Below, in pieces: positions 36,499 through 57,399 of a stretch of 64,000 nt of DNA. The position numbers were made by a program, and so were the translations under genes. How positions within the stretch are numbered: position 1 is the first letter of the stretch; the number at the start of each line of letters is the position of its first letter. The notes under the pieces were generated by a model. The model saw only the letters and a list, made by a program, of their open reading frames with translations, was not told the DNA's origin and searched no databases. The DNA comes from Rhodosporidiobolus odoratus. Taxonomy: Eukaryota; Basidiomycota; Microbotryomycetes; Sporidiobolales; Sporidiobolaceae. Location: the NCBI GenBank assembly GCA_034387635.1, contig JAOANU010000001.1:310001-374000 (forward strand). Direction: 5' to 3'.

Positions 36499-37188
36499 TT
36501 ACATACCGCGCATCACCGCTACGTCACCCGAAAGCCCCCGTCTCGCTTGCGGGACAAACGGTTTCGCAAGAGAACGTTCCAGCTGGTTTTCAGAGCCGGG
36601 ACCAAGGGGTTGCTGCATTTTGAAAAGCCTTGTTAGCACGAAGGCACAGACTAGACGGCCCGGCTGCACTCACGGAGATAGGATAAGGTCGCTGGGAGGA
36701 GAAGAGCTTGTTGAGAAGGTCAGCTTGTCTGATACTGTTGCTACGAGAAAAGATGCAGTCCGACATATCTGGAGAAGACTATGCACTGTGTTCAATGTAC
36801 CTTCATACTTCCTTGTGAGGGCTTCCAATGCGTGGGGTACAGGACCGTCCGTGTGGAAGTGGTTCATCTCATAGACTGCAAAGTGCGCCGCCTGTTCTGG
36901 TCCCTTGCACTCGGCCAAATCCTGCCTCAATCTAACATACTCAATCTGCGTCAGCAGCAGAGTGACAGGCCGCTGCCAGTCCCGCTCAGAATTGCTTGAT
37001 CCTAGCATGGGGCACAGTGGCTCATGTCGACCATTCCGCCCATTTGCCAAGCGCAAGAGGCCTGACAGAACAAAGCAAAGGGCTATGTTGGCACGACCGA
37101 GTCGAGAATCGTTCCGCGCATTCTGGCGTTCTGTCCACTCCTCATGGCACACGATAATCTGGCGAAACAAGATGAAGTACCGCTGCAA
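36499..37188 (-). pseudogene. C0, 5'-truncated copy of the multicopy family
   Basis: Only the 3' half of a family gene is present. The exon from about 37188 covers most of M5: YFILFRQIIVCHEEW, GRANIALCFVLSG, RDWQRPVTLLLTQIEY and YEGTLNTVHSLLQ. After an intron come RPYPIS (M6) and a last exon ending LERSLAKPFVPQARRG...VAVMRGM (M7), stop at 36499. Modules M1-M4 and any start are missing. Only about 260 bp separate it from the end of C1 just upstream, too little for the missing exons. I read it as a truncated duplicate. The remaining frame is open, so a short transcript is possible. Confidence 0.65.
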
Positions 37189-37449
37189 AGCTGGTCAAGG
37201 TCAAAGAGGGCAAGAATCCAAACGAAGATACCCACTTTAAGGCGGTTGCGATGCATACGCCTTTGCCGTACTCCTTGCTATTGACTCTAATCTACATCAA
37301 GAGCAATCACCTTATGAGGCATTTGTCTGCTAGGGCATGTGTGATGCCAAGGACCGTAGAAACAGCACTTGACAAGCTTCTCGATAGGCCGCAAGGTTGC
37401 CTCTTTTCACAACATTGACAAGCCACTATATGTATGTGAGCTGCCCTTG

Positions 37450-38955
37450 TCACATGCTACGGAGCACTGCTACACCAGCTGCCCTACTCTTCCGCGCCTG
37501 CGGAATGAACGACTTGGCCAACGAGTTTTCTGTTCGGGGTCCTAAAGCGGGTATGAGGCGCGTCTGCGGTGTGTGACAGAATGGTCAACTTTATGCAAGC
37601 AACAGAGTTTGTAAGGAGATGCACCATGAGTGGCTGCAGCGGGTAAGGACGCTGCGAGGAAGAAGAGCATGTTGAGGAGGTCAGTTTAGCTGTTGTCACT
37701 ATTCCCCCCCCCCCCCCCCCCCACAGTAGAAGCTACATAGAAACGGACCTGGAGCAGAGTTTTCAGATGACCAAATATACCGTCATACCGCACTGTGTAC
37801 CGCTCCACAAGGCGAGGGTCCGGCCCCTGTCCATGGTAGTGCTCGAGGTAGTGGTCTGCTGCAAGCCCCGCATGATATGGGTCCAGAAATTGCATTACCT
37901 CCCTCGCCAGTGCATTGTAGGCGTCCTGTGTCAACAGCAGTGAAACAGCGCGGTCGACGTCCTCGAGTTGCAGCTTGAGCATGCGGCATCCCGGCTCTTG
38001 CGATGGCAGGTTCTTCTGAACGTAGCTGTAAAGGTTGGCCCCTCCGACCACAGTGAAGAGGCTGAGGGAAGCACGAGCGAGGCAAGGTATGTTCTGCTCT
38101 TGCCGTGGCTTCATGCACTCGGCATGGTAGATGATGAGCTGGCGAATCAAGGTGATGGAAGGTAGCTCGACATTGACGGTTGCTCCGACAAGCGTGCCGG
38201 GCCCACTCACAGTCGAGGAATATGTAGAAGGACTGGAGAGAGGAAGATGCTGGGTAGAGAGGTGAAGGTGAAAGTGGACATCGGACGTGGCGTTGCTGCA
38301 GAGGCACAGCATGCATTCAGTGTCAGCCTCAAGATAAATAGCGGTAGTCAGATGTAGTCACATAGGGAATGGCTGCAAGAAGACTCGTCGGCCAAGAAAC
38401 CCCTCTGGCTCCTGTGTAGCAAAGGCTTCAGTTGTTGCACAGACTGATCCAGGAGAACATGGTTTTGTACCTGACCTGGTGGACCGCGTTCGATACTGTG
38501 CCGGATGTTCCGCACCACGTCTGCAAGATCTGCCGCACTGAGGAGGAGGCTATCTACTGGGACTGTAAGTTCGACCGGGTACACAGACCAAAGTCACAAA
38601 GATAAGTTGTACGCATTGTGTGGAAGAGCAAAAGGCAAAAAGCTTATGAGGTCTGCGGATGGGAAGGCAAGCCTGCCAAGCTCTTTCAAGAAAGCTTCTG
38701 CTACCGGCACCCGAGCACATCCCGTGAAGCGGAGTACCGCAGCGGTCAGGCCTGATTTCGGGGCAATAGAGTGGACAACGCGATTCAGCATTGCACGCTT
38801 CACCACAGACAGGAACGGCACGTACCGGATACCATGGGAGGTCCAGATCCTGCGGGTTCATGGTCTGGCAGACGTTCAAAGACCGTCCTCAGCGCCGCAA
38901 CATTGTTGACCGGGGTTGTCTCCACTTGAGGGAGCTCGGTGACGGCATGCGGCAT
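37450..38955 (-). CDS. C1, complete member of the multicopy family
   Basis: Function unknown. Start ATG 38955 (MPHAVTELPQVETTPV); the MPHA start is shared with D and F. M1: NVAALRTVFERL to MVSG, then donor GTACGTG. M2: KSGLTAAVLRFTGCARVP (about 38755). M3: YPVELTVPVDSLLL, helix ADLADVVRNIRHSIERG. M4 is weak: RGFLADESS (near 38390). M5: VHFHLHLST, QLIIYHAEC, EDVDRAVSLLLTQDAY, RYDGIFGHLKTLLQ. The following intron has a run of 19 G. M6: RPYPLQPLM. M7: NSLAKSFIPQARKSRAAGVA, ending VAVLRSM at 37450. No signal peptide or membrane helix. Helix-rich composition, no known domain recognised. The module 3' end and 3' flank are close to those of F, suggesting recent duplication. Confidence 0.72.
37704..37722. 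repeat. Homopolymer C19 (G19 on the sense strand)
   Basis: Lies in the C1 intron between the M5 and M6 exons, shortly after the donor (GTCCGTTT). G-runs of this size are slippage-prone and can affect splicing. Confidence 0.95.
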
Positions 38956-39806
38956 GTTGAGTCTGCAGAAGCTTCCGCTGATGTGAAGCGAGCACGCGGA
39001 AGAGAAAGAGCAGTGTGAGGGTAACCGTGTGAGGACAACCTGCTTGTGCTCTCCTCGTAGTCCGCGGACGCTTAGCGCCCGGGTCTGCTGGTCATGTGAC
39101 GCGATCGGCGATTTTGAGCAACCGAGGCAGTGCCCAAAAAGTCTGCGCGGACAAATATAGCAAAGTGAGGCCGGAGTTGAGAGGGTTAAGTACGCTTATT
39201 CCAGGTGAGCTATATGATAAGTCGGATTATTTACCCTTGAGTCCATCGGACTCAAAACTCGGCTGGACTCGCCCCGCCAAAAAAAATCGAGTCCGGACTG
39301 ACCGGATTGAGAAGGTCAAAACACAATCAGAACATTGCGCCGTGCTTGACATGGCACTCCCATCGTGAAGGGCTCTGGTCACACGGACGCTAAACGGAAG
39401 AGAGCTCTTGAAAGACCAGCCGCCGTGACTGCGTGCTCAGGTGCGTGCTTGTGGAACTGCTTTTTGTTCTGGGGGTTTTGTGTCAGATGTTGCAAACTCT
39501 ACGGGATGTCATAGGCACTTAATTAGTCAAGCATGGCCCGCACTAGATTACATAGCAAGCCAGAGTGCTGGTTCAAAGGTCAATTCTAGAAGTGCAATAA
39601 GCGAAAAACGTGAACATCCTTTCCAACCAGCGGCGGTGACAAAGTTACTCCCGTCGACGTATCCCTTGTCATTGACAGCTGATCTAATTTGTCGAGAGAG
39701 GCAGAATGTAAGGCCTATGTTGGCTAGCATCACTCGACAAGCTTTTGACAAGGCAGAAAACCATCACGGCAGCAACAAGAAACTATACATAGATGGGCTG
39801 CTCTTA
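38956..39806. other. Spacer between C1 and F
   Basis: Upstream region of C1 and 3' flank of F. It contains the GAGTCC/GGACTC cluster at 39237-39300. No gene is seen. Open frames on the plus strand are antisense to F or lack coding character. Confidence 0.5.
39237..39255. promoter_or_regulatory. Perfect inverted repeat TTGAGTCC-ATC-GGACTCAA
   Basis: Arms of 8 bp with a 3-bp loop. The half-site GGACTC recurs at 39265-39270 and its complement GAGTCC at 39289-39294. It lies about 280-350 bp upstream of C1. It could be a regulator site or a hairpin; both readings are inference. Confidence 0.45.
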
Positions 39807-41332
39807 TCACATGCTACAAAGTACTGCTACACCGGCTGCAGTCCCCCTCGTTGCCTGCGGCATGAACGACTTGGCGAGCGACAGAGTGGACTTGCGAAAG
39901 GTGGCTCAGCTGGTACCTGGACAGATGGAGGAGGAGAGTCAGCATACATACATTTGGTGGGAAGAGGTGCCTACATGAAGATGGCTAGGATATGGACACT
40001 GTGGAAAAAAGAGGTAAAGCGGGGTGGAATAGCAAAGTTGAGCAAGTCAGCAAAGCAGACTACGGGAGGCAGAGAGACGCACGCATCAAGCAGCTTCAAG
40101 ACCTTGTGAAATGCGTCCAAGTAATCCTCGACCTTGTCATCCGCCATGGCAGAGTCTCCTGCTGCAGTCGGGTTGCCGTAGCTGACATGTCGGATTGCGG
40201 CCCATCTTGCTTCGATGGGCCCCAGCCAAGGCTGTAGCTGATGTACCCATCTCTTGTGCTGAGAAGGTGGTACAAGCAGGGAGATGGCATCATCCCAGTC
40301 ATGCCCAGTGAGCCTGAGCTGCTTGTGCTGAGAATCTCTAGCAAGTTCGGCACCTAGCATGCTCAGGTGGATGCAGAGGCCTGCGCGGAAGATCATATCG
40401 TCGTCCCTGCGGTTTTCGGGTCGGGAGTATTCTTGCATATAGTAGTATAGACAGCTAACGAGGGCGTAGGCCGGTTCCTCCACATGTATCGCGCGGGATC
40501 TACGTGCGGTATACAGGTCGAGGATTCCAGCAAAAGGGAATTGTGTCCTCGGGAGCAAGACGGGAAGTTGGAAGAGAGACACATTGAGCTGGTATAGTGT
40601 ACATGATCGGAAGAACGGCTGGTGACCGTCATTAGTGTATTGTCGAACCTACGGAATCCTATGAGCAACTCACAGATCGACCCCACTTTTGGGCTCCGTG
40701 GCAATATAGCAAGCGGCAAAGAAGCCTGACACACACTGCAGTGCAAGTGTATTAGTCACGCAGCGTGAAATTGATACAAGAACCCAGGTCCTGCTCACGA
40801 TACCATCAACGTCGCGCTCGCACTCCACGAGCCGCTGCACCAGTTTCTGCTCTCGCTTGCTTGCCTCAAGGTTGTCTCGTGGCTGGATCGCAATCTCGAC
40901 GGGGTACCAAGCGCAGAACCAAGATTAATACAAAATAGACCCGGAAGACAGGGAATGACTTATCAGACTGTGCGTTTGGAAGACGAGCTTGGCGAGCTCG
41001 GCAAGAACGTGCGGTAACAGACACTCGACTCTACTAAACGAGAGGAAACGTATCGCCAGAGCGGTGAGTCCTGGAAGTTGATGAGGGATGTTAGCCGTCA
41101 GATCGTCAGAGCACGAGGGTACCAGCCTAGACGTACCCGCAACCATTGGCTCCGTGTGAGCGACCGCTTCCGGCAGATGGTGTAGGCGATCGAAAACCTC
41201 GACGACCGCGCCCGCGTTGCTGGCCAGAGTTGCGATATTCTCGTTCAAGGTGAAGGGTGAGTGTGGAACGGGAATAAGTGGTATTGTTGGCACTGGAGGC
41301 GGGTCCCGCTCGGGGGTGAGAGCGTGAGGCAT
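39807..41332 (-). CDS. F, complete member of the multicopy family
   Basis: Function unknown. This copy shows every module most clearly. Start ATG 41332 (MPHALTPERDPPPVP), then a Pro-rich leader. M1: LNENIATLASNAGAVVEVFD to EPMVAG. M2: GLTALAIRFLSFSRVECLLP, helix LAELAKLVFQTHSLIS. M3: YPVEIAIQPRDNLEASKREQ. M4: CVSGFFAACYIATEPKSGVD. M5: LYQLNVSLFQLPVLLPR, YALVSCLYYYMQEYSRPENR, MIFRAGLCIHLSML, GHDWDDAISLLVPP, YLDAFHKVLKLLD. M6: CPYPSHLH. M7: STLSLAKSFMPQATRGTAAG, ending VAVLCSM at 39807. Introns between modules are about 60-100 nt. The reading phase into the M7 exon was not resolved. No signal peptide or membrane segment. Confidence 0.72.
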
Positions 41333-41826
41333 GGGAGATTGCGCAAGAAGTAGGGAGTATTGTGGGATTAAGCGAAGTTTGCGAAGTGCACCCACCCAGG
41401 CCCCATGTAGCAGCAACTCCAGCGGGTATCAGCGTAAGCTCGCAGCGCTGCATCGCCCAGTTGTAGGGCAGAGGCGCGAATCGAATCGACGGGAGGCGGA
41501 AGACGATGTCGGGCGTAGTGCCAGCGATCGGCGCGCAGTTTGTGATTGTGTGCGTAGCTACTAGCGTTCAGCGTTCAGCAAGTAATTCCGGCAGGTTCGT
41601 CGTGAGGAGGCAGAGTTCCATGTTTAAACCTTTTACGACTGTCGCTTCTACTCCAGTCTACCAACGACTAGCTAGTTTCATCCTCACTACGCTGACCGAC
41701 CCGCTTGGACTACCTCACAAGTCGCCCACGACGTCGTCGCTACGTTATCCTTCACGTCACCGCTTCCGCCTATTCACCTCCGTCTCTCACACCCTACAGC
41801 AGCAGAGGAGCAATAGTCTGGCAAGA
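41333..41826. promoter_or_regulatory. Divergent upstream region, F / histidine phosphatase
   Basis: About 495 bp between the two starts. An in-frame ATG at 41620 would extend the phosphatase by 69 residues (see findings), so part may be coding or 5' leader. Confidence 0.5.
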
Positions 41827-43160
41827 ATGGTACCTCTACTTGTTACCATCATCCGACATGGCGAGTCCAAGGACAATTTGACCGGTATGTCTCTCCCGAT
41901 GGACCAGTGCATTGTATTTCAGTTGACCTTCCTCGGCTTGTGCAGCACTGTGGGCAGGCCATCGGGACGCACCTTTGACGAACCACGGCTACACACAAGC
42001 CACTCGGCTGGGCGAGGCTCTCAAGGACGTCCCGATCACCGGTAGAGCCATTCTTTTGCTCGGAAAAATACCACCGCTTATGCCTTAATGACTGCAGCTA
42101 TCTACGCATCGGATCTCGCGCGTGCCAACACGACCGCTCGTCGAGTCTGGGATGCCAACAAGACCGAACCGAAACCCCCCTTCACTACGTCGCCCCTGCT
42201 GCGCGAGCAGTTCTTCGGCGAAGCTGAAGGTAAGGCGACTTCGATCGGCTTCTGTCAGTATGGTGGTCGCTGACACAAGGTCTTTCACATGAAGGTGCGC
42301 CGTGGGACGCTGGAAAGTACTCGAGTGCTCATTTGCCTTGGGAAGATCATCGTGCCTTCCGGTACGGCCATTTTCTCGAGTATTCTATGCTTCAGTATCG
42401 AGCTTTCATCGTCTCTCCACGCATACTGACGCTGGATCTGCTATTCAGGCTTGCCCCCAACGCTGAATCACTCAACGATGTCGCCCGTCGCGCCGACCTC
42501 GTCTTGCGGCACTTTGTCATGCCGCATGTTTTGGCTACGGCCTCTACTCCCGCTTCGCAGTCACAGCAGCAGCAGCACATTGTACTCGTCGCTCACGGTA
42601 TCTGGCTCTCGGAGATGCTGTTTGCCTTCAAACGTGCCGGCGATCCGAAAGTTCGGTTCGTCAAGCAGGGCGGTTACTCCAACACCGGGTACAGTCGCCT
42701 CGAGATAGAACTCGATGACCTCCCTTCATCAGAGCATGCTCTTTCGCCCGGCGAGACAGGCGGATCAGAACCCCGAAGAGGAACGCAGTTTACCTCCCCG
42801 CCTGCTCCTTCCGAAGCTGCGCCACGAACTCCCGCCTCTCCTGCTCGAAGCACCGCTGCAGCGTCCGAAGCGCCAAGACCACCTCTCGACGAGCAGTTCC
42901 GAGTTCTTCTTCCTACCCTGTCGCCCGTTCCTCCCCGCGATTCTACCCTGCCACCGCCTTGGCCACACGCGGACGACCTGTCAGTTCCGACTCCAAGACT
43001 GCGTCACCGCGTCGTCACTTTCAACCAGAATGAACATCTCGTCGGGCTCAAGAGGACTGGGGCTGGAGTTGGAAGTGCGGGATGGGACGAGAAGCAGCGG
43101 GGGTTGAAGGAATTCTTCAGTGGCGGAGGCGACAAGAAGAGCGGGGCAGGGAAGAAGTAG
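41827..43160 (+). CDS. Histidine-phosphatase (phosphoglycerate-mutase-like) protein
   Basis: Broad-specificity branch of the histidine phosphatase superfamily; substrate unknown. Start ATG 41827 (MVPLLVTIIRHGESKDNLTG) gives the catalytic RHG motif at residues 10-12. Later exons read ALWAGHRDAPLTNHGYTQA, TAIYASDLARANTTARRVWD, REQFFGEAEG and APNAESLNDVARRADLVL. IVLVAHGIWLSEML supplies the second catalytic His. The C-terminal third is a Pro/Ser/Ala-rich extension with TPRLRHRVVTFNQNEHLVGL and a tail ending GGGDKKSGAGKK. Four introns of about 60-90 nt. RxRHGxxxxN and the HG box resemble yeast YOR283W/PhoE-type enzymes rather than glycolytic Gpm1. Confidence 0.87.
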
Positions 43161-43618
43161 AGGGAAATTCGGAAGCCTGTACGTGAGAACCTGCAGAGCT
43201 ATGCGCCGAATAAGGTCGGCTTACAGCCGGCTCCTCGATTCACCTTGTTATCCTCACTTCGCTCTTCCAGCCTTAGCTTCAGAAATCGGGCCTCGCCCCC
43301 CTTTAACCCTTTCTACTTACCGATTCGAGCTTCTGCGTCAGGTTGCTGTGACGGATGGCTTGACGTCGCCTTGCTCCTTCTGCCCCCGCTCGTACCGCCT
43401 CCTTCGCATTCCCGCTCAACTGGCCCGCTCGCACCTCTCGCTGGCGTCCGCCCAGTCTTCTATTCCCTGTTCCGCTTTGCCGACTCTCCGGTCCCTGGGC
43501 CAATGCGCAGGGGAGATCAGGGGAAAGGCGGCGCCCGGACAGAGTGAAGTGCCGGAAAGTCTCGCTGGTTTCTTTCTTTCTTCCGTCATCGTCCTCCATC
43601 ACCAACCTGAAGCCGGCT
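43161..43618. other. Intergenic, 3' of the phosphatase
   Basis: Holds the phosphatase 3' end and the promoter of the next gene. No gene is visible. Confidence 0.5.
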
Positions 43619-44697
43619 ATGTCTCTCTTTCAACTACTTACCCTGCTCACTCTTTCTGGTGCGTTTTCTCATCTCCCTCACAATCCGCTCTTGACTGAAT
43701 TTCGCTGTCCGTAGTTGCCTTCTTATCGGCGGCGGCTGATTGTCGTCTTGCAAAGACGGAGGATGTTACGCTCGACGGGCTCGTGGCCGCGTTCCAAAGC
43801 TTCACTTCAGCGGCGGTCGGCTGCCCGGGCTCTTGCGCTGGCTACATGGGTACGACTGTTCTCCTACGTTGTATCTCTCCGTTCCTCCACCGCGACTTCC
43901 AGAGATCGCGGCTGCCCCAACGCTCCTGACCGGAGCACTTCTGTAGTGCACGGTGACTGGCATGCTTGATGTCTCACTGACGGACTTTGGCTCGTGCATC
44001 TGCGTCGATGTCACCTCCGACCTCGATGAGTGAGTTCTCCAACTTCTCTATTGGTTGTTGTCTCACTCATACTCCGATCCAGGTGCTCCCTTTGCGTTAA
44101 GGAGAAAGATGAGAAGAGCGATGTGGTTGCCGGATCGACGGAAGCTGCCGATGGTGCGCCTTTTCCCCCATCACTCTGTCTTCCTACGCAGCTTCTGCAC
44201 ATAATACTGGCGCTCGACCTGCACAGAATTTCGCAACTTCTGCGACACTTTCGGCGTCAGCACGGTCGCTTCGGACGAGGACGAGATGTCGACTTCGGCT
44301 GTCACCTCTACCGCCAGCGCTCCTCTCGCCTCGGTACGGCTCCTTCTCACTTTCCTTCTTATACGACTTTTGTGTCGCTCTTGCGTCACAGGTGACTCAA
44401 GCCGCCAGCGCTTCCACCTCTTCCTCCTCTGGCTTGTCCAACCGTCCCGCCGATTGCCCGGCCGAATACTGGCTCGAGGGTCCTCAAGTCTGTCTCCCTC
44501 ACACCGATAGCACCATGGCAACCGTCACCGTCACCGCTTTGGCCGCTCATTCGCTCGCAGCTGCAGCTACGAGTGCGCCTTCGACCGCTGGCGTTCCCAA
44601 CTCGACCGCCGCGGCTTTGGCTGAGGAAAAGAGGAGGATGCAGATGCAGATTCTGGAGCGTTCGCGTCGGAGGTCAAGAGTGAGGTTGTTCTCCTGA
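43619..44697 (+). CDS. Predicted secreted Cys-containing protein
   Basis: Unknown function. Start ATG 43619: MSLFQLLTLLTLS, an intron (donor GTGCGT, acceptor CCGTAG), then VAFLSAAADCRL. Together they form a typical signal peptide. The mature part begins TEDVTLDGLVAAFQSFTSAA and has Cys pairs in CPGSCAGYM. Downstream coding patches are GMLDVSLTDFGSCICVDVTS, CSLCVKEKDEKSD, CTEFRNFCDTFGVSTVASDE and a Ser/Thr/Ala-rich region. The last 100 bases can be read KEEDADADSGAFASEVKSE followed by VVLLTLAGAASLALW. That would be a hydrophobic tail of GPI-anchor type extending slightly past 44697. Exon joins after the second exon are unresolved, so the 3' end and the tail are tentative. Confidence 0.5.
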
Positions 44698-44895
44698 CAC
44701 TGGCGGGAGCTGCTTCTCTGGCTTTGTGGATCCCCTACGAAGACCCTCTGTCTCGACGTTGCGGACCGCAATCGAGAAGGTCAGGAAGAAAAGCCTTCGC
44801 AGTTCGCTCGATGCCTTTATTCCTTGCTCTCCGACGCACGTTCGATGTTCGATGCCTGTCATGCTTGTCTATGCTACAAAACCCGCAGCACGGCC

Positions 44896-46596
44896 TTAAT
44901 TGTCGTCCTCCGACTCTACCTCAGCCTCCAGAGCCAACTTCCTCTCGCCCTCTTGCTTGACAAACCGAGCCAACCTCAACTCGGCCTCGAGGAGCTGAAT
45001 CTGAAGTTCAAGCAGCTGGGGGGTGTCGGTTTCGCGCGGTAGGTCCTCATCGTAGGGTTCGGCCTCGTCCTCGTCCTCATTCTCTGCCTCACTGTCTCCA
45101 CCCATCTCAGCACGCCCGGCGTCGACCGTTCTGACCGCACCCTCTTCCCCGATCTTGTGCTCAGCCTCAGCAGCGGCAACAACAGGAACCCCCGAAAACA
45201 CCTCGAAAACACTCCTGCTCCTCTTTCTCCCGCCTCGCTGATTGAGCTTCAACTCGGCTAGTACCGTCGCGAGTTGCTCGCTGTGCTCGGAAGTCGGAGT
45301 TGAGAGTATAGGCACGATGGCGGGGGAGGAGACGGAGATGCCGTCGAGAGTGAGGGGGAGAGGGTTGGACGGGGCGGAGGCATACTGAGCTTCGACATCG
45401 GCTGCTTCGGCGACGATACTCGCGACGGCGTCGGTGGAGAGAGAGATGAAGTCGGCGTTGCGGATCGAGACTGATTCGAGGCTGCTGATGGAGGATTCGG
45501 AACAAGAGTCAAGTGAGGCCAGGGCGAAGGATTCGTGGTCGTCCTCGATTTCCTCCTCAACCTCGTTCTCCTCCTCCGCAAGCGCCTCTGTTTCCATCGA
45601 CGGTGTGAGAGGTACCGCCTCGTGCGCCTGCTCGATAGCCTGCACACGAGCCAACATCTCCCTGATCATTCCTTCGAAATGCGAGACCAACGGGGCGGCG
45701 GAAGTAGAGGACTCGACCTCGACGGGCCCGCGGTTGAATGCCTTGTAAGTCTGAGGATCGACGAGGAACAAGCGGCCTTGATGGTCGACGAGAGGAGGCA
45801 TGCCGAGGAACTCGCAATCGGCGATGTAACCGCGGTGGTCGACCAGGGGAGGGAGGTCCGAGAAGTCGTCGGTACAGATGGAGGAGACCTGGACGGGCGC
45901 GAAAGTGCTCGACCTAGCCGCACCAGAGTCGGAGTTGGTCTGACGAGGGTGGAAGGTGACGCCGTTCTGGTAGTACAGGGTGCCATGCTGGTCGACGAGA
46001 GGCGGGATGTAGCCAGCAAGGTGGAGAGCCTGGACGTCCTCGACGGGCTCGGCGTCATCTTGCTCCCCAGGTGTAGCTATAAAGTTGTGGATGACCTGAA
46101 CGAGGGGATTGACAAGGCTGGTGGACTTTTGCTGAGAGCGTAGGAGAGAAAGGACAATGTCGGTCTTGTCCTCAACGCGCTTGAGGTGCTTCTGGTGGTC
46201 GTCGAGCCTCTGTATGACCTTGGCGACGGTGTCAACCAGCTGATACAGGAGAAGGGACGTGAAGCAGAGGAGTCAGCCGTACCCCTGTGAGACAACCCAG
46301 TTGAAAAGCGAATTCACCTGTTTGTGCTCGTGGTCGCGGTCGAAGGACAGATCAGTCTGCGCCGATCGCTCTTGCTTCCGGTCCTGTCGGGAGCTAGGCT
46401 TTTCCCGAGCACGGTCAACACACGTTGTCCTCGAGGGCGGGAAAAGAAGAGGCATTACTACACACACCTTTTCCTGCGCTGCATTCTGCCTCTGCGAGCG
46501 AGAAGCTTCCTCCCAGGCCCTAAACTGAGGCTCAGTCTGCGCCATTATGGCGAGATACGCGGCGGTATTGAGGTTGACCGTGGCCAAGGAAAACAT
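44896..46596 (-). CDS. Coiled-coil protein with PPLVDxxG repeats
   Basis: Unknown function. Start ATG 46596 (MFSLATVNLNTAAY); MAQTEPQFRAWEEA at 46545 is an alternative. Exon 1 is helical and Gln-rich (EEASRSQRQNAAQEK). A second exon and a third with LVDTVAKVIQRLDDHQKHLK and RVEDKTDIVLSLLRSQQKS are probably coiled coil. Then three copies of a motif occur: GYIPPLVDQHGTLYY (about 46025), SDLPPLVDHRGYIAD (about 45855) and GMPPLVDHQGRLFLVD (about 45800). An acidic region (45600-45540), an Ala/Val-rich part and a Glu/Asp-rich region follow. A C-terminal helix LLELQIQLLEAELRLARFVK ends EVESEDDN at 44896. No signal peptide. The repeats may be a small repeated beta-hairpin (inference). Confidence 0.75.
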
Positions 46597-47022
46597 GGCG
46601 AGTGACCGACGAGAAAAGAAGAATGGGGATTGTCGCGTTGACGATGAGTAGGCTCAGAGAGGGACTTATTCTGCAGGCGAGAGCTGTGAAGTCGAGTGTA
46701 AAGGAAGAGAAGCAGGACCAGCCTGGGACACCCCCCTCAAATACCGCCCCATGTCTTCGGCAAACAAACAGATGATTGACTGAACGAGTTGTCAGAGCTG
46801 GTCGAGAACCTACCGGTGACGAGGATCGGGCCAAGCAAGCTGTGAACGGCGTACACTGCTGTCGCAGTTGTTTCTCGAACGTCAGAGGGTCGCGAGCATG
46901 CCGGAGCGGGAGAAGAACCGGGAGGCTGTCGTCTTCCGTTCGAGTCGGGCCCTTCTCGTTGGGATCGCCTGTGCTCGTCTTGCAAATCTTACGTATACCA
47001 ATGGGGCCGTCGAAAATTGTCA
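46597..47022. other. Intergenic between the coiled-coil gene and PSD
   Basis: Promoter of the PPLVD-repeat gene and 3' flank of the decarboxylase. Nothing else is visible. Confidence 0.5.
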
Positions 47023-49267
47023 TTACGGTGCGACCCATGTACCAATCCTCTCCCCGACCTGCCGGAAAAACAGCACGAAACAATGTCAGTCTTAGGGAGC
47101 GCGAGTGCGCCAACTCTCGAAACCACGTCAGGTCATCAGAGGCAATTTGTGTGATACGTACCTTGACCAGCGTCTCCACCTGCACCCCTTCCGCGTTCTC
47201 CCCCTTCGAGTTCCGCAATAAATCCGCGTCCCACTTGACCGTCCTAGCTGGGAAGACGGCGATGACGGTACTTCCGCCGTAGGCTGCAAGAGACACGTAA
47301 TCAGAGACTGTACCTAAGAAAGCCGAAAAGGAAATCGCGCACCGAAATAACCCAACTCGTCTCCCCTCTTCACCGCTTTGCCCTCCTTCTTTGTCTGCCT
47401 AATACTAGCTACTAGCAGCGCTCCTACCTGCACATACGCGACGGGAATTTGCTTGCGCTGAGAAGGGTCGGAGATGGCAGGGTTGATGGTATGCAATGTC
47501 GTGACTGCAGAGGAAGAAAAGGATTAACGCCACACGAGATCGAGGGAAACTCCTAGGATGACAGTCAAAGTACTCACCATCGCGCTTATTCTCGGTGAAG
47601 ACGTCGAAGCGCTTGTCTCGCACAATCATCGAGTTGACAGTCTGAAAGCAAGAAGAAAAAAGAGAAAGACGCGGTCAGACTTCCGCAATTGTCGCCTTCT
47701 GTTTGTAGCTGCGAAGGTGGCAGGAATAGGTCTTACGTAGTAGACTCCCGGTATGTGCTTCGTCTCCCCGACCACGCAGGCTATCGGCGTGTGAAACCGG
47801 TGGTAATCTGCTGGTGCCAGACGGAAAATGGCAACGCTGCCGTTCTTGAGATCTGAAGCTAAGGAGGCATCTCGCAGCAACGTTTCGAGCGTGAAGTGAC
47901 GGCCCTGCGGTGGTGAATCGAGAGGACGACCATGAGCCTAAGGCTCGCCAAGCTGGTCAAAGAGAATTACCCACCTTGACCCACAGCTTCTTTGTACTGT
48001 CGACGCTGTCGAAGACGGTCAGCCGGCAGTCTGCAGCGCTCGAGATGACGGTGGCGTCGTCGGGCGAAGCTATTGGTCGGGCATCTGGTCGAAGTTTGCG
48101 ATAGAAGAAATGGTTCAGGGTCGGGTAGTCGGCAAGGTTGGGTTTAAGGAGGTCGTCGGTTTTGACTGTACAGGCGGAGGGCTTCAGTTCAGTCTGTTGA
48201 CGAGTTAGCGGAGAAGGAATGGCTGAGAGGCGGTCTACTCGACAGCGTGGTGCAGGGAACTATGAAAGAAAAGGTGGAGCAGAGACTCACTGTCGTAGGC
48301 ATCAACAAAGTGCTGTATCCGCTCGAGTGCATGTCGTGGATTGTCGAATTTCTTGCCTGTAAGGGTAACTTACAAGTCAATTGCGTGTCGGTACAAGGGT
48401 TTATATACAACCCGATGGACGAAGCGGCTTACCTTCCTTCTCGGACCACTTCTTGAAGGTCTGCCAGGACCAGCATCCAGCTGGTCAGTCAAGAGCGGAC
48501 AAGCCTTGAAATGAGGGGCAAGCTCACATTCTCGACGACCTTGCTCCGAACTATCCGCCCTTGGGTTAGGCCGTGATAAAGCAGCCTCATGCCTATCCGT
48601 GTGGTCAAAGGCATACGCTGTAGCGGAAGAGACGTCAGCTGATATGGTCTCACTGCGGTCCGAAAGACTAGGGAACGCACCTCGAGCGCAACATCCTCGT
48701 CACCTAGTGCTCCATGATCTCCTTTTCTCCGTCGGATGGCGACCAGCACTCCCGCATGCGCTTTCACCTCTTCCTGCGCACATTGCCTCTAGTCAGTCCT
48801 CCGCGATCGAGGGGCACGGGGAAAAGGGGGAGAAAGAGTAGACGACATACAAGAACAAAAGTCGGATGTTTCGACAGCACGACCAAATGTCCCGATTTTC
48901 CATCGTTGACGTGCGGTTCTTCCTCAACCTTTCCTTCATCCTCCCAAACGTCTCGTCCGTCATCCTCCCATGCGTCTCGTCCGTCATCTTGCACCCCGAG
49001 CGCGCTGTCCCGCCGCGATAACCGCTTCCCGGTCAGAGGTTGATGCTCTTCAAGGTCAAGTAAAGGCTGCGAGCTGCGAGAGAAGAGTGGTGTCGGTGGC
49101 GTGGCGCTACTGCCACTGGACTTGGGCTTGTCGGAGAAGGGTAGAGCGGCTGATGAAACGGAGGCGGAGGCGGCTTGTCGTTGAAGAGGATGGAGAGCGG
49201 CGGCAGGCGGCGGAGGCAGTGGAGGGAGTCCGCTATGTGCTATCGTCAGGTGCTGCTGATCTCTCAT
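47023..49267 (-). CDS. PSD2: Phosphatidylserine decarboxylase, PSD2-type (GGST)
   Basis: Pyruvoyl enzyme making phosphatidylethanolamine from phosphatidylserine. Start ATG 49267 (MRDQQHLTIAHSGLPPLP). A Pro/Ser-rich leader contains an 8-residue repeat (DDGRDAWE, DDGRDVWE). PSD core: RMPLTTRIGMRLLYHGL, KPNLADYPTLNHFFYRKLRP, ISSAADCRLTVFDSV, LWVKGRHFTLETLL. The catalytic segment YHRFHTPI follows, then IPGVYY, LHTINPAI and VQVGALLVASI. The self-cleavage site is AYGGSTVIAVFP: the Ser of GGST becomes the pyruvoyl group. GGST is typical of PSD2-class enzymes and LGST of mitochondrial PSD1. The final exon adds VGERIGTWVAP with the stop at 47023. There is no obvious mitochondrial presequence, so Golgi/endosomal location is inferred. 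Seven or more introns. Confidence 0.9.
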
Positions 49268-49700
49268 GGCTTGATGTACGACAGCGGTGGCGTCGGCGAG
49301 GTGCAGGATCGGGAGGCGTATTAAGTGATACCGGCCAGTCCGCGGAGTGGATTGGTCGAACCGAAGGTTGAGCGAAGACCAGAACGGCGGATCGCTCGGC
49401 TGCTCCCTTGAGATTGACAAGCCCGCTGACCTTTGCAGGCGTGTCGTTCCGGCTTTCCGACCGGCCCAGCAGGACGAGCAATGGGAGGCTTCCTTCGCTC
49501 CCATCTCGACCTTCTCAACTGCGTCTCTCAGTGCTTTGTGGCTGCCCGGCCTCGAGTTACTGCTCCTGCTTACGAGTTGTGTGCAGCATGATGTACAGTG
49601 CTCACGCCTGCGCAAAGTCCACAACCTCAGGCGCGCATGCCATCGAAGAAGGATGAAAACAACAGCACCTTTTTTCAGCCCTTTACAACAAATGCTCAAG
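49268..49700. other. Intergenic between PSD and WDR70
   Basis: Upstream region of PSD and 3' flank of WDR70. Open frames here are non-coding by composition. Confidence 0.5.
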
Positions 49701-52442
49701 CTACTTCTTCCCCTCCCCGCCCCCTTCCGCTCCTTCCTCTTCCGGTCTGTTGTCGAATACCGCCTTAGGCTGCGTCTTAGCCCAAGCTTTAGTCCAGGTG
49801 TTGTCTTCTGGATCTGCAGTGGCGTATTTGAGAAGTGCTTCACGAGGCTGCGCGGACGGATCGTGGAAGGGCAAGGGGAGAAGGAAGCGAGAGAATTAGA
49901 ACTCTTGTAGGAATGGAGGAAGGAAGGAAGGACGGAAGAAGGAAGGACACAGGGTTAGTGGGGAAACGGAGACGTACGTCGACATCCCGGAGCGTGTTGC
50001 GCACGAGACCTTGCACGACGTGCTGCGTCGCGGCAGCTCCGATGCGACCACCTTTTCCAGGTCCAGTGACGGGCGGGACTGAGTACGGTGAAGGCATCGA
50101 TCGCAAAAAGCGGAAGAGGACAAGACGTCAGCGACAAGTACACACACACGCAGCAGCGCGAGAGGTACGGCAGATCCAAATGAATCGCGAAAAAGAGAAG
50201 GTGGACGAAGAGAGTAGGAACAGCCAGAGGCGAAACTCACGGGGCTTCATCGTCTTCTGCCCATCCATCCTCTCCCTCTCCCTCTTCCTCTTTCCACCTC
50301 TACCACCCGCGCTAACCCCGCCTCCATCGTCCTTAAACATAGGTAAGCTGTGCGGCGCAATGATTGGTCGATCCAGTTCTGTTCCCGAATGAGTGAAGTC
50401 GTCGATTTGAGGGCGTTTTGTTGGTCGAGTGATGGAGAGGAGGACGCCTTTGAGGGAGAGTGAGGGTGAGTAGAGGACGTGAATTGAGCCGGCGGATGTA
50501 GAGGCGAGGATCTGGTCGTCGGCCCCGATGGTCAGCTGGGTGGGTAAGGTGACGTGCGGGAGAATGGACGAACCTGGTTGATCTTGGGGTGCCAAAGCAC
50601 CTTGACGACGCTATAGTCACTGATCTCGATTTTCCGAACCGTCTCCAGCGTTTCCGAATTAAGCACAACAACCTTCCCCTTCCCCTTCACGCCGGTCGAT
50701 TCCTCCTCTGCGCTGCCTGTTCCAGACACAACGCCCGCTTTAGATCCAGCAGTACCAGTGAGGATGTATCGTCCGGAGGGAGAGAAGATGAGGTTTGTTT
50801 CTTGATTTAGGGAGGGAAGGGAAGTTGCGGAAGCGAGAGGGGTTTTGAGAGACTTGGGGTTCCAGACTGCAGGGAGAGAGTCAGGTCTACATAATTGTCT
50901 AGAGGTAGCACGCTGCGTCTGGTCGAGGACAGAGTGCGGACCGTCGATGCGGCGCGCGAGAGGAGCAAGTTAAAACGGCATAGGGTAACCACGCACGTTT
51001 GACCGTCCCATCCCCACCCCTCGTCGCGAACCTCTTTCCATCTGGACTCCAAGCCAACCCACTCGTCCAAGTCCCCTCCTCATGCCCCTTCTCCCCGGTA
51101 TAGTCCGACCTGTTGTACTTAGCCCCCGCCCCCGCTCTCCAGACATGTACCGAACCATCCTCCATGACCGCGGCAATCAACTTCCCATCAGGACTCCAGC
51201 TTCCGGTGGTAACTTTGGTTTTGCCACCTTTTCCGGGGGCCTTTGACCGGACTACTAGGACAGAGGTGGATTTCCGTCGGGCTGTGGTGGACCAGATTCG
51301 GAGGGAGGAATCGGAAGAGAGGGTTAGGAAAGTGGTGGGTTGGGTTGGATGCCATGAGACCGAAGTGACCGCCGCTACGTGGCCGCTGTGAACGCAATGT
51401 GTGAATCAGGCACTCGTAAAGCAAGGAGACGAAAGAGAAGAGGGGAGCGCACTCAGTGTTCCGCAAGTCACGGATGTACATGTCGCCTTTGTTGAACTCG
51501 CCACTGCAAGGTATTGTGAAATCAGCAGTATCCCTATACCTACGCGTCGACCTTTCGCTCCATAGCTTGAGCAATTCCAGAAGTCGAGGCCGTTCAGGCA
51601 CTGTAAGAGCAGATCAACGTACACTTCCGCGCCGTCTCGATCATACAGCTTGACCTCCGTGCTTCCATTAGCAACCAGAAACTCCGAGCCTGTCGAGTTC
51701 CACTGTACGTCCGTGACCTGCCCGGACAAAATACGGAACGGCGATCAGTATCCGGGTCGTCTGCGCGGGCCTCGAGCCGACGGTCCACAAGGCCCACAAC
51801 AGGCACGTAACCTCGAGGAGATGGCGTGCCCACGAACGCGACTTTCGCAAGCTTACCTGATGCCCAGCTCTCGCCTCGAACCCCCTGAAACTCTTCATTC
51901 CGCCTTCGCCGCCCTTCATCCCTCCAAAATCCCACAGCTTGACATCGTAGTCGTAACTGCCAGAAATGAGGCGTGCGCCGGACGGATCGAGGGAGAGGGC
52001 GGATACAGTCTGCGCACACAAGCTGAAGAAAGTGAGTAGGGGAGAAGGGGGAAAGAGGGGAAAGCTGGGAACGGACCTTGACGTGGTCCTTCATTTCTAC
52101 CTCGTGCGTGACTGGGAGTCGATCTACTTGATCGTCTCCATCATCCTCACCCTGGCCTTCATTGTCGACTTCGAGCCTGTCTCTCGGGACTTCGGCTCCA
52201 CCCCCTGCTGCTGCAGGATTCGCTCGCGCGGGCAAGGCTTCATCCGGGTGTTCGTTCGAGATGACGATGTTGCTCGGAGCGTCCTACGTGGAGCAATAGT
52301 GAGTTGATGAAGCGGCAGGACAAGAGATGGGGAAGCAGCGGACCTGTTTGCGTTTAGTTGCTTCGAGTTTGGAGAGGTCGACGGCCTTCTTCTGTGGTTG
52401 TTTCTTACCGAATGCGAGGGGTAAGCCAGTCTCGGAATCCAT
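49701..52442 (-). CDS. WDR70: WDR70-family WD40 protein
   Basis: Beta-propeller protein related to WDR70/Gastrulation-defective 1, linked in S. pombe and human to DNA-damage response and chromatin. Start ATG 52442 (MDSETGLPLAFGKKQPQKK). An acidic N-terminal region follows. WD repeats: TVSALSLDPSGARLISGSYD with YDVKLWDFGG, VTDVQWNSTGSEFLVANGS, FLTSSSDSSLRIW, GSWSPDGKLIAAVMEDGS with VHVWRAG, GLAWSPDGKRFATRGGDGTV, YILTGTAG, and ASTSAGSIHVLYSP. The tail carries GGRGGKRKRERE, a conserved end ATQHVVQGLVRNTLRD, intron, REALLKYATADPEDNTWTKA with WAKTQPKAVFDNRPEEE, stopping at 49701. The REAxLKYA...AxTQPKxVx ending is the family hallmark. About nine exons. Confidence 0.88.
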
Positions 52443-52667
52443 TAGCGTAGTGTAGGGACGAGAAGGGAGTAAACCAACTCATGATGAGAATCAAGTTGAT
52501 CAACAACAAGTCACTTACCACAACCGAGACAGGTTCTGAACTCTGTTACTGCTCGCCCAAACCACTTGAACAAACATACGAGCTCCATTCACGCTTGTCC
52601 GACCCGTTCGACCACCTCCCCGCCGCCACCTTCCTCCCCTAGTCGATCCGAAATCCCTTCGTCAGCG
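52443..52667. promoter_or_regulatory. Divergent promoter, WDR70 / small membrane protein
   Basis: 225 bp between the two ATGs. It is the shared upstream region; no specific element is recognised. Confidence 0.45.
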
Positions 52668-53370
52668 ATGTCAGCTCCCGGCGTCCCTCCCCTCGAGTCA
52701 AACTCAAAACTGTCCCTCGAAGAGATTGGTAGCGCAAACCGACGAGCTCAGATCGATGGTCAGTCCCCCCTCCCTCTTTTTACCTACTATTCTTAGTTCA
52801 ACAACCTATGATGAAACTGACGAGTGGTCATTGTAGGCGTCGTGACCGGTACCTGCGCAGGTTTTTTGGGCGGCTTCATCAGCTCAAAATTGCTTAGGCA
52901 AAGTAGGAATATAGGGTACGCCGTTTTCTTTACGTTGTCCGCGGTTGCCTCCTTGTCTATCCAGGCAAAGCAACAGTATGCCCTAGAGTGCATCACAGAT
53001 TCTGACGCAGTATCAGCCCTACAGGTTGCTATCCGGCATTCTGACCGGTTCCATCGTCGGGTTCGCCTTATTCTTGTTCTTTCTTCTGCTATTATCATTA
53101 TAGCTTGGCCCGTCTCTTGGTGCTCATCGCTTTCTCGTACACAGTTATCTCTTCACTCAAGAATCTCTCAAGCTGAATCTCGCCAAAGCGCACGCCTCTC
53201 ACGCGTCTCTACGATCTCACCTTTCCCCTACATTTACCTCTTCCTCCATGTCACTACGAGACGGGGAGAGGATCCCTCCCAAGACTTGGAATTTGAGCAA
53301 GAAAGAGGGAGGGGTCAACGGTCTGGAAGGGTTTGAGGACAAGTACGCGTCGACTAGGGGAGACCATTGA
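52668..53370 (+). CDS. Small protein with two Gly-rich membrane segments
   Basis: Unknown function. Start ATG 52668 (MSAPGVPPLESNSKLSLEEI). After an intron the frame continues GVVTGTCAGFLGGFISSKLL, a Gly-zipper-like membrane segment. RQSRNIG follows, then an intron spliced GG|G, then LLSGILTGSIVG, a second Gly-rich segment. The last splice I favour (donor GTTCGC near 53062, acceptor CACAG near 53143) leads to YLFTQESLKLNLAKAHASHA and a soluble tail ending EGFEDKYASTRGDH at 53370. Without that splice the frame would end soon after FLFFLLLLSL. Two GxxxG-rich hairpin helices resemble small inner-mitochondrial-membrane proteins, but I do not recognise the family. Confidence 0.6.
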
Positions 53371-53754
53371 GCCGCGAACTTCGACGGACGTTGTGGTCAC
53401 GATCCTGTGTACGCGGGGTGGGACGGCTTGGCGCTGTAAAGATGTAAGCGGACGCTGTTTCCTCTCTCGGACAAGTCTGCGCCTGTCTGCGCTTCGCTGC
53501 ATCTGTCTTTCCTATCCGCCTCTACTTCGTGCAAACTTCGTGATCTTCCTGCCCTTTGCGTCGCAGCACAGACTTCGTCTTCCGGAACATGCACTCGCGA
53601 CCTACTCAAGCGACGCGAAGCCTCCGGAAGACAACGCGGGCGAAGGCGGGTGCAGGGCAGCGCAGGTCCACTTCCGCGGCGGCGCGGAGTAGCACCGCCT
53701 TGCTTGGTCACCGCCTGTCATTCCTTGCGCTTGTGAGCTCCTTCCTTGCTCGCC
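53371..53754. other. Intergenic, upstream of family member D
   Basis: No gene recognised. Short open frames on both strands lack coding character. Confidence 0.5.
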
Positions 53755-55359
53755 ATGCCTCATGCCGTCGAACCGAATGCGCGTCGGCCGGCACCTCCGC
53801 GTCCGCCACGATCTCCTCCACCAAGCTCGAACGCCCTTATCTGGGTTCCGCACCCCATCTTCGCCTTGAACCAGTCCCTGACCACCCCAGCGCAAAATGC
53901 CGGCGCGCTGGTTACCGTGTTTGAGCGTGTTGCTCGTGAGGGATTAGGGAGACGTAGCGGGCGGTATAAAATCTTAGCGGCAGGTGCGCAGCTCAAAGCA
54001 ACTAGCAAAACCAGACATTCTTCCGATGTACCCGCTCTGATCCTTCTATCTTCTTTTCACGGCAGGGCTGTCGGCTTTGACCCTTCGCCTGCTTGCTTGT
54101 CATCGTGTTCACTCACTGCCCGCCGACGTTCTGTACCAGCTTGCGCAGCTCACTATGCCGACGAAAAATCTGATGAGTCACCGCCTATTCTCCTGCTTAC
54201 GCCACGTAGCTGACTTGCCTTGTGCTTTCCTCACCCAGTAGAGGTTGTCATCGAGCCTAAAGATGAGATCATCGAGGAACATCTAGATAACGTACGGTCT
54301 CGGCTCGAGCGTGATTTTCAGAACCGCGAGGTGCGAGAATCATTTTTCGTCTGGTGTATACTGCTCCTGACGTCAGCTGACATCCTTCGCAAACAGATGA
54401 CGCGAGGCTTCTATGGCAACCGGGACATCATCACTCAAACGTACCCGGTCAACCCGTGGGACTTTCCCGCAACCTGTTACCGGCTGATCATCGCTAACAC
54501 GGATCCCCAACAGATCGGTCCCATCTCACGTACACTACCATCTGGATGTCTCGCCCCTTCAATTTCCCGTCTTTCTGCCGACCGTCCTCTGGAAACACGC
54601 CGATAAAATCCCTGTCGTCACCGCCGCCAATGAGCTGGACATTCCCGCAGAGAAACCTTCGCTCGCCCTCGTGGCTGGGCTCATCACCTACGCCGACGAG
54701 CTGTCAAAGTCAGGAGCTCTACAGAACCACGACAGACGCTTCCGGGCCGCCTTGTGCGTGCGTTACGCCATAACAGCAAGAAACCTTGCTATGGGACTAT
54801 CCGGGTCGGCATACCATCCTCTCCAACTGACTGTCGCCGACTGGGATCAAGCAGTTGCGTTGCTGTTCACGGAGTCGACTTACCGAACGACAGTGCACAA
54901 GCTCGTGAAGGGCCTCACGGGTGCAGAAGCAAAGTGGGCAGGCGGCCGTCACTTTAACTGCTCGGTGCCAAGGGCGGCTGTAGATCCTGCGCACCTCAAT
55001 GATGCGCTTGCTATTGCGGTTGAGGCATATGAGGACGCTTTCACAGAGGTGCGGGTGTTGCTCAGAGTACGTCCTGTAGCACCTTGTCTCGTTGGTGTAA
55101 TAACTGACCTTCCCAAATCTCTGTTTGTGATTCCTCTGTTCTCGTTTCTTTCTCTCGCCAGCGATCTTATCCCGAGTATCTCTATGTGAGTCTCTCCTCA
55201 CCTCGCTCACGACACCCAGCGCCTAACCATGCACGTGGATAGGGACGCACCTCGCAACAAGCCCCAAGGTCATCACAACGCTCTCTGGCCAAGTCGTTCA
55301 TGCCGCAGGCGAGGAGGCGAACTGTGTTGGGCCGTGTAGGGGTGTTGCGCAGCATATAG
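53755..55359 (+). CDS. D, complete member of the multicopy family
   Basis: Function unknown. Start ATG 53755 (MPHAVEPNARRPAPPRPP), Pro-rich leader as in F. M1: FALNQSLTTPAQNAGALVTV, FERV, ending LAAG. M2: GLSALTLRLLACHRVHSLPA. M3: VEVVIEPKDEIIEEHLDNV, then a charged helix. M4: TRGFYGNRDIITQT. M5: VHYHLDVSPLQFPVFLP, ALVAGLITYADELSKSGAL, RRFRAALCVRYAITARNLA, ADWDQAVALLFTESTY, VEAYEDAFTEVRVLLR. M6: RSYPEYLY. M7: SSQRSLAKSFMPQARRRTVL, ending VGVLRSI at 55359. Six or seven introns of 55-100 nt, all with GT-AG ends. The C-terminus V-[AG]-V-[LM]-[RC]-[SG]-[MI] is shared with C0, C1 and F. Neighbour of copy E in the same orientation. Confidence 0.72.
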
Positions 55360-55795
55360 AAGGTAGACGACGAGCTGTGCGTTACAACGTCCGGGCTGTC
55401 CCTGTTTGAACCCTTCCGGGTTTCGATCCCGCTTGAATGAGCCGCGACTGAATTCCTTCGCTTTCACTCGTCTCGTCACCGCGGCGCTTCCTTTGGTCGC
55501 CGCCGTTCGTATGCCTGAACCGCCTTCCGGGTTTCGATCCCGCTTGAATGAGCCGCGACTGAATTCCTTCGCTTTCACTCGTCTCGCCACCGCGGCGCTT
55601 CCTTTGGTTGCCGCCGTTCGTATGCCTGAACCGCGAAGTCGGGGAGCTATTCTGTCTGTTGCTGTCCGCGGTCAAAACGCGGTGGACGTGAGCGGGGTAC
55701 AAGATCCGGCGCGGCAGCATAGCCCGCGCAGGCCCTGGCCGTGAAGGGCCGCGCTACCGCCAAGCGCTGAGCTGCAGCTACTCGTCCTTCGTTGA
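55360..55795. other. Spacer between D and E with a 111-bp tandem duplication
   Basis: Contains the tandem repeat below; otherwise nothing recognisable. Confidence 0.6.
55412..55633. repeat. 111-bp direct tandem duplication, two copies
   Basis: Copies 55412-55522 and 55523-55633 differ at two positions that I can see. The unit length is 37 codons, so frames on both strands stay open through both copies. It sits between family genes D and E, and no family module lies inside it. Confidence 0.92.
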
Positions 55796-57399
55796 CCCTG
55801 CCCCCTTCTGCCAGCAAGCTTGATATGCCCTTCATTGACAGCACAGTTAGGCTTCTACGAAGCCGAGGCGGTATACCCGCGAGTGGTCGTGCCAGCCGCC
55901 GCCTTCGACTTGACGGAGGAATACACAACGCTAGCCAGCAATGCGGGCGCTGTGATCGCCCTGTTAGTCCGTCTTCCACCTGACACGGGCCACCACAGGC
56001 TGGTTGCGCAGAGCAAGCCTAGGGCTGCAGGTGCGGGAATCCTTTCTCCGAGGCACATGGGGGTCCTGCGCGCTTCAACTCACTACTCGCTGCTCACACA
56101 GGGCTGTCCGCGAATACTCTTCGCCTCCTTTCTTGTCATGGCATGCGGCCGCTTGCAAAATTCAGTTTTCCTACGTATGGCCTGATAAGTCGCTGGCTCT
56201 GTACCGTCTTCCTCATCCTCAAGACTGACTCCGTTTTCGCGCTCGCCTTACCCCGTCAAACTCGCAAGTACGCCGCGCGAGGATATGGACCACGATGAAG
56301 AGGATGTACGGAGACTGCTCGACTGGGTCAAAATTGAGCGGGACGTGAACGGTCATGTAAGTCAGTAGTAGGTGTTACAGGGTCGCAGCCACGTCGCCTC
56401 ACTCGACTGACCAGCTTTGTCTGCAGCGCATACAAGGCTTCATAGACAGTCGATACATCATCACAGAGCCTCAAAAGGAGCCCAGCCAGGGACTCTTGTC
56501 GCAACCTGTGTACTTGAAAGGATCGCAACTGACATTTCCCACCGCACACAGTGTGCGACACCGCTCGTACACTATACATTATCATTGTGACCTCTCCTTG
56601 TCCCATCGCCCATCTACCTGCCCGCGGATCATTATTTCTTCTGCGCCGACCATGTGCTCGTCGACCTTTGCTACCCAAGGGTTCCGAGTCTGCCGACACA
56701 GCTCACCATGCGTACGGAGAAACCGTCCTTCATCTTGGTAAAACAACTCCTAAAGTTTGCAAACGAATGCATCAAGCCAGCAGACATGCGGAACCATCAT
56801 TCAATGTTTCTCGCGGCCTTGTGCATCCGTTTCCTCATAATCGGACCCGGAATCGTTGCGCGAGCGCCGCGAGCACATAGCCCACTTGCCATAACCGAGA
56901 CCGACTGGGATGGAGCCGTCATCATGCTTCTGTCGGATGCCTCTGATCACCGCGATATGAAGGAGGCGTTGAAGAACTGTCTGGGAGCAGAGAGAGCGGA
57001 GCGAATGGCGAGAATGCATCTGGAGCATTGTGCTGCAGGAAGGGCCGAGGAGACTTCTCAGTTGGACCAGATGACGCGCTAGTATCTTCAGGCGTTCAAC
57101 AAAGCGCTGGAATGGCTCAATGTGAGTCGTACATACTTGATTTCCTCAAGAGGAAAAATCGGCTGACCTTCTCAACTTTCGCTTTTACCCTTTCTCCATC
57201 CTGCAACAGCGCCCTTACCCTCATCACTCGATTATGAGACCGGTCTGGCGCATTCAAACTTCAGCCGTGTACTCACCGCCAGATCTCATGTAAACAGTCA
57301 AACCCTCGTCGATCTTCAACCAGTCCTCCGTTGCAACGGTCACTCGCCAAGGCGTTCGTACCACAGTCCAGGAGGCAAGCCGTGGGGATATCCGGCTAG
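55796..57399 (+). pseudogene. E, probably decaying member of the multicopy family
   Basis: All modules are detectable. M1: FDLTEEYTTLASNAGAVIAL. M2: GLSANTLRLLSCHGMRPLA. M3: AREDMDHDEEDVRRLLDWVK. M4: RIQGFIDSRYIITEPQKEPS. M5: YLPADHYFFCADHVLVDL, ILVKQLLKFANECIKPAD, MFLAALCIRFLII, TDWDGAVIMLLSD, YLQAFNKALEWLN. M6: RPYPHHS. M7: LQRSLAKAFVPQSRRQAVGI, stop at 57399. Two defects: the M1 frame is open from 55796 but has no in-frame ATG (the ATG at 55824 is in another frame). In M5 an in-frame TGA at 56588-56590 falls where D and F have Ser (LVHYTLSL then stop, versus VHYHLDVS in D). An unusual splice or upstream start exon could rescue it, but a pseudogene is more likely. Confidence 0.6.

Follow-up and report, generated by a model that had tools for sequence, protein, structure and literature searches.

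We describe a family of divergent paralogous genes in a 64,000-nucleotide stretch of the Rhodosporidiobolus odoratus genome (hereafter the window; contig JAOANU010000001.1, referred to as contig 1, from position 310001). In the window the family comprises four loci, named C1, D, E and F, and a fragment, C0; three further copies (L4a, L4b and L5) are located elsewhere in the genome. The sequences strongly indicate that the second intron, wherever it is kept, belongs to the AT-AC kind and has a major-type donor, ATRAGY. This intron is absent from the preliminary description of the locus, and we judge it to be the most unusual feature of the family.

A predicted AT-AC second intron and its proposed removal

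Intron 2 starts with AT and ends with AC in all seven copies that retain the region (all but C0), and the donor reads ATRAGY in each of them. The introns range from 57 to 69 nucleotides (nt) in length, with all three modulo-three classes represented, and are invariant across the seven copies at positions +1, +2, +4, +5, -2 and -1, while the remaining terminal positions (to +16 and from -16) have identities of 0.14-0.52, except +6, +16 and -7 at 0.71. The first intron of these genes is GT-AG in 7/7, with RAGY at +3 to +6 in 0/7, so the strict ATRAGY donor is not a local habit. If intron 2 were retained, translation is predicted to end after 134 (D), 95 (C1) and 122 amino acids (L5). After its removal, the predicted junction has exon 2 ending in ...CTG and exon 3 opening with CCAGTAGAG in D, with the corresponding sequences ...CTC and CCGGTCGAA in C1 and ...TTG and CCTCTCGAA in L5.

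We enumerated every intron of 40-129 nt whose donor sits 45 nt or further inside exon 2 and whose removal would link this exon to exon 3 in an open frame. Within this range no GT-AG or GC-AG join was found for F, C1 or L5, and the ATRAGY...AC join is open in six of the seven copies. Several points weigh against an AT-AC intron, however. The ATRAGY...AC join is closed in L4b, where exon 2 is frame-shifted; GT-AG alternatives occur in D, E and L4a (one each) and in L4b (two); and the AT-AC join is a prediction from genomic sequence. In addition, two scans for AT-AC introns elsewhere in 264 kb, one by codon score and one by splice motif (18 AT-AC observed against 20.4 expected in the latter), were powerless, as GT-AG itself did not stand out, and for that reason both are silent on the frequency of AT-AC introns in this genome. 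The enumeration also returned GC-AG alternatives in D, E and L4b, and AT-AC pairs besides ATRAGY...AC in D, E, L5, L4a and L4b.

These alternatives bear on the possibility, which we regard as unlikely, that working copies use an ordinary GT-AG intron 2 (for example GTCACC...ACCCAG in D) and that the AT-AC pair is a relic or a coincidence. Such a reading gains from the D alternative, which is offset by 4 nt relative to the AT-AC join and gives an intron of equal length, and from the joins counted above in E, L4a and L4b. It would nevertheless leave F, C1 and L5 with no such join in the range enumerated, although C1 and L5 are intact. The GT-AG and GC-AG alternatives moreover fall at sites that differ between copies, those of the GT-AG class having the dissimilar donors GTCACC, GTATGG, GTCCTG, GTTCCA and GTGAAA, whereas AT, A at +4, G at +5 and AC are invariant in 7/7 while most other positions vary.

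AT-AC ends are classically associated with U12-type introns, and intron 2 could in principle be a minor intron, with the minor spliceosome retained in this fungus. We consider this very improbable. The U12 consensus is given as a donor ATATCC and a branch site CCTTAAC, also written (T)CCTTAAC (PMC3033335); in intron 2, ATATCC is found within the first 8 nt in 0/7 copies and TCCTTAAC anywhere in 0/7. The U12, U11, U4atac and U6atac RNAs were not found in the genome, whereas U6 was found by the same search route; this negative is nonetheless weak, because the control genomes gave no match either and the searches for U12-class RNAs thus had no working positive control. Convincing minor introns are reported to be lacking in Basidiomycota (PMC10639083). 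Because U12-type signals are lacking, intron 2 is best read as a type-II AT-AC intron that would be removed by the major spliceosome, a class already described elsewhere (PMC7072748, PMC3033335). The features of type II, AT...AC termini and a major-like donor (RAGT-like at +3 to +6, not ATATCC), are each found in 7/7 copies, and a YTRAY branch-like motif is located 20-33 nt from the intron end in 6/7. The C1 intron has no YTRAY branch motif, which counts against this reading, as does the uninformative outcome of the search for minor-class RNAs. A keyword-limited search of open-licence literature found no paper on AT-AC introns in Pucciniomycotina or Rhodotorula.

The U6 search itself returned a small nuclear RNA match on contig 18 (398434-398628, L047), with an inverted match at 409087-409281, that spans ~195 nt against a model of 105 positions. 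By eye it contains an intron-like insert, GTACAC...CTACAG, and a second U6 copy on contig 11 (L046, 140365-140479) is without an insert there. Introns in U6 are known from Rhodosporidium.

Copies, gene models and evolution of the family

The preliminary description proposed five loci sharing seven ordered modules, and the module peptides that it quoted are present in the open reading frames of the window. The loci are real paralogues. With D exon 5 as the query against the same genome, E-values of 2.2e-22 (F), 5.0e-15 (E), 7.1e-11 (L4a) and 1.4e-9 (L5) were obtained, and with C1 exon 5 values of 1.3e-17 (L4b) and 1.3e-11 (C0). The count of five, on the other hand, has to be raised to at least eight, a lower bound because the genome searches (24,822,437 bases, 45 contigs) score best candidates only. 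Likewise, the full module order applies to C1, D, E and F; C0 retains only part of exon 5 together with exons 6 and 7. The outer borders of the cluster, 36499 and 57399, agree with the stop codons of C0 and E, respectively, and D and E lie on the plus strand and C0, C1 and F on the minus strand. A family-profile search of 264 kb listed the copies, followed by a fragment of the region of copy E itself (E-value 0.025) and then by rows with E-values of at least 4.3. A genome-wide family pattern search gave 11 matches, six of which are family copies, and the reversed pattern gave three.

Complete spliced models, in which all joins are predictions from the genomic sequence, were built for D, C1 and L5 (Table 1). 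They give complete frames of 389, 359 and 388 amino acids, respectively, over seven exons each with no internal stop, and their intron phases are identical (1,0,0,2,0,0). Of the 18 introns in these three genes, 15 are GT-AG and three AT-AC, each of the latter being intron 2. Module order is thus exon order, and because the modules of D, C1 and L5 join in that order, in the same phases and free of stops, we agree with the earlier view that chance or low complexity is no explanation. The last, C-terminal exon, with SLAKSF[IMV]PQAR or a variant of it, is found in 8/8 copies. Half of the copies (C0, E, F and L4b) appear damaged; L4b is frame-shifted, exon 2 failing to stay open by eye, in agreement with the intron enumeration. 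Given these damaged copies and the lack of any sign of joint action, the term "system" used in the preliminary description is too strong.

Table 1. Positions of the family copies, their exons and the AT-AC introns (window coordinates unless a contig is named).
Feature	Position	Strand	Remark
Cluster C0, C1, F, D, E	contig 1, 346.5-367.4 kb		own-genome search; window begins at 310001
L4a, L4b	contig 1, ~275.6-279.3 kb		own-genome search
L5	contig 2, 1724.5-1726.1 kb		own-genome search
Fragment C0	36499..37194	-	truncated; part of exon 5 (~36775-37194) and exons 6, 7; stop at 36499
Copy C1	37450..38955	-	intact, 359 amino acids; spliced model without internal stop
C1 exons	38826-38955, 38648-38751, 38471-38578, 38362-38411, 37749-38295, 37625-37651, 37450-37563	-	
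C1 intron 2	38579..38647	-	predicted AT-AC, 69 nt, ATAAGC...GTGTAC; enumeration: 0 GT-AG/GC-AG joins
Copy F	39807..41332	-	frame-shifted; frame change near exon 5 start
F exons	41137-41332, 40964-41070, 40799-40903, ~40674-40735, ~40083-40618, exon 6 from 39998, last to 39807	-	
F intron 2	40904..40963	-	predicted AT-AC, 60 nt, ATAAGT...TGGTAC; enumeration: 0 GT-AG/GC-AG joins
Copy D	53755..55359	+	intact, 389 amino acids; spliced model without internal stop
D exons	53755-53983, 54066-54172, 54235-54330, 54397-54440, 54514-55066, 55162-55185, 55243-55359	+	
D intron 2	54173..54234	+	predicted AT-AC, 62 nt, ATGAGT...CCTCAC; GT-AG alternative 4 nt off also in frame
Copy E	55850..57399	+	damaged; one in-frame TGA and one TAG, both in exon 5
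E exons	~55850-56030, ~56102-56184, ~56252-56356, ~56427-56507, ~56552-57121, then from 57210, end 57399	+	
E intron 2	56185..56251	+	predicted AT-AC, 67 nt, ATAAGT...CCTTAC; 1 GT-AG and 1 GC-AG alternative elsewhere

The exon-5 proteins share 17-50% identity over 28 pairs, and the tree has five inner branches, with support only for C0+L4b (99/97). Differences between D and F at codon positions 1-3 (0.45, 0.44 and 0.66) are as under protein constraint, and those between C0 and L4b (0.33, 0.29 and 0.31) resemble neutral decay. Most pairs of paralogues are at or near saturation and some, such as C1-F (0.64, 0.51 and 0.64), have no third-position excess over the first; this tells against a constrained family, and constraint is accordingly clear in few pairs. 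The family could be mostly dead: a gene that was formerly useful or selfish would be decaying, with D, C1 and L5 still intact because they are recent or by luck. The damaged copies, the equal C0-L4b differences at all three codon positions and a Gypsy-like element on the same contig would fit such a history, to which we give a low probability. However, D, C1 and L5 are complete over seven exons at 24-28% exon-5 protein identity, and this combination is hard to explain without selection.

Some further features of the family loci and their surroundings may be recorded. A run of ~19 G on the minus strand (37704-37722) lies within intron 5 of C1, and a unit of ~110 bp (CCTTCCGGGTTTCGATCCC...), seen by eye, is present in two consecutive copies between D and E (55410-55640). 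The stretches upstream of C1 (38960-39200, minus strand) and L4b (L004:2690-2850) are alike by eye, as if promoters had been duplicated along with the genes. Of ten neighbouring frames scanned in the window, several belong to conserved genes of ordinary kinds, namely DOCK (two exons), phosphatidylserine decarboxylase, an SNF2-type remodeller, a FYVE protein and a THOC3-like WD40 protein, and three frames lacked a match. A Rab-like neighbour (~8.2-10.2 kb, spliced by eye) has its best of 161 matches in Rhodosporidiobolus microsporus (49% identity), and its top fifteen matches are all from Rhodosporidiobolus or Rhodotorula. The Gypsy-like element, in which an integrase and a chromodomain were matched (L019:3-1991), is located at ~240-242 kb on contig 1, ~35 kb from L4a. 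Between both clusters lies a homeodomain gene (L025:3085-6024, minus strand; contig 1, ~303-306 kb), which by eye resembles a Pho2/Yox1-type regulator. The idea of a mating-type locus was tentatively dropped, since this gene is not mating-type-like by eye and no partner homeodomain is among the listed frames. A search of Rfam with the window and seven neighbouring stretches (134 kb) gave no match.

Encoded proteins and their proposed role

The preliminary description recognised no domain in these proteins and expected no known fold or a remote one, and the searches are in line with both. Neither Pfam nor NCBIfam gave a match above cut-off for the three spliced proteins (3/3) or the exon-5 proteins (7/7), so that BTB, F-box or any other known domain was not found; the best match below cut-off was DUF3090 (E-value 0.035), in one member only. 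No relative was found among PDB sequences for the family proteins or among PDB folds for the exon-5 region. The further expectation in that description, of many matches in related Pucciniomycotina, was not borne out. In a protein database that includes many red yeasts, among them Rhodosporidiobolus, Rhodotorula and Sporobolomyces, no homologue was found for L5 (E-values up to 1) or for an L5/D/C1 profile (E-values up to 10) in a search that needed shared five-residue words and scored 7996 and 7997 candidates, respectively. The description of the family as an orphan is therefore provisional, as the search was word-limited and relatives with gene models broken at the AT-AC intron would be missed. 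The L5/D/C1 profile and an early Pfam/NCBIfam query set were without the last exon, and the C1 end in them consisted of intron-read residues; L4b was left out of the analysis labelled A1, and the structure predictions included none of L4a, L4b and L5.

The structure model of D exon 5 is helical. That of C1, in which six helices follow one another in the same order, is poor (mean predicted local distance difference test score, pLDDT, 43.3), which speaks against reliance on the helical fold. An AAA+ lid (MCM-like), considered because of a resemblance, is unsupported by domain scans or fold comparisons, and is not among the matches listed by Foldseek or VIA for the exon-5 helices. A viral origin was likewise set aside, as PHROGs gave no match for 3/3 proteins and there was no viral fold at E-values of 0.001 or below. 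A 302-amino-acid open frame in the window (3007-3912, minus strand), with no Pfam match, is faintly like the exon-5 helices by eye and absent from the family-profile listing.

Taken together, these genes probably form a family that is restricted to one lineage and evolves by birth and death. Its proteins would be intracellular and partly helical, and their expression at full length would depend on the removal of an unusual intron. The family would multiply and decay through local duplication. The ordinary U2 spliceosome would remove intron 2, with A and C, in place of two G residues, coming together at the intron ends, and full-length protein would arise only from transcripts rid of this intron, making it a bottleneck of expression. 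No signal peptide was noticed by eye in the family proteins, and the product may be an intracellular protein that acts via binding partners and in which the exon-5 region forms a helix bundle. As to its purpose, a fast-evolving, conflict-like role is perhaps the most likely. A more elaborate proposal is that the AT-AC intron acts as a built-in switch, with one gene giving two products: poor removal would yield a short product of 95-134 amino acids (exons 1-2 plus a tail) and full removal the protein of 359-389 amino acids, and the family would represent a poison-and-antidote module, selfish or engaged in conflict, with a new fold and subject to local spread and decay. We hold this to be highly improbable.

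Significance and comparison with known systems

If seven diverged paralogues have kept an AT-AC intron, in a phylum for which convincing minor introns are reported to be lacking, the major spliceosome would seem able to retain AT-AC sites for long periods, and the introns of this family would offer natural substrates for tests of the A-C end match. Annotation limited to GT-AG and GC-AG introns could break the whole family and thus make it seem absent. For the protein family no relative was found here by sequence, nor for its exon-5 region by fold, and its small size makes it accessible to direct study.

The wtf genes of fission yeast, a lineage-restricted and fast-evolving multigene family, are similar in that they too are multi-exon, strongly diverged and clustered, lack a known domain and include damaged copies. 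The likeness is one of description; in contrast to wtf, no membrane segment was noticed here by eye, and no sign of two products or of drive was seen. In sodium channels, the position of an AT-AC intron is kept across paralogues. Intron 21 of human SCN4A is an example of a type-II, U2-dependent AT-AC intron (PMC2831892, PMC7072748), and intron 2 shares with such introns the AT-AC ends, a major-like donor, the lack of a U12 donor or branch motif and a single position kept across paralogues. It differs from SCN4A in its basidiomycete-like genome, in the short length of the introns (57-69 nt), in its presence in 7/7 copies of an orphan family and in that its splicing is a prediction. In Caenorhabditis elegans, AT-AC introns are found although most U12-class RNAs are seemingly lacking, and they are probably processed in the U2-type manner (PMC3033335). 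The AT-AC introns of that species are scattered across genes, whereas those described here are seen at one position in one family.

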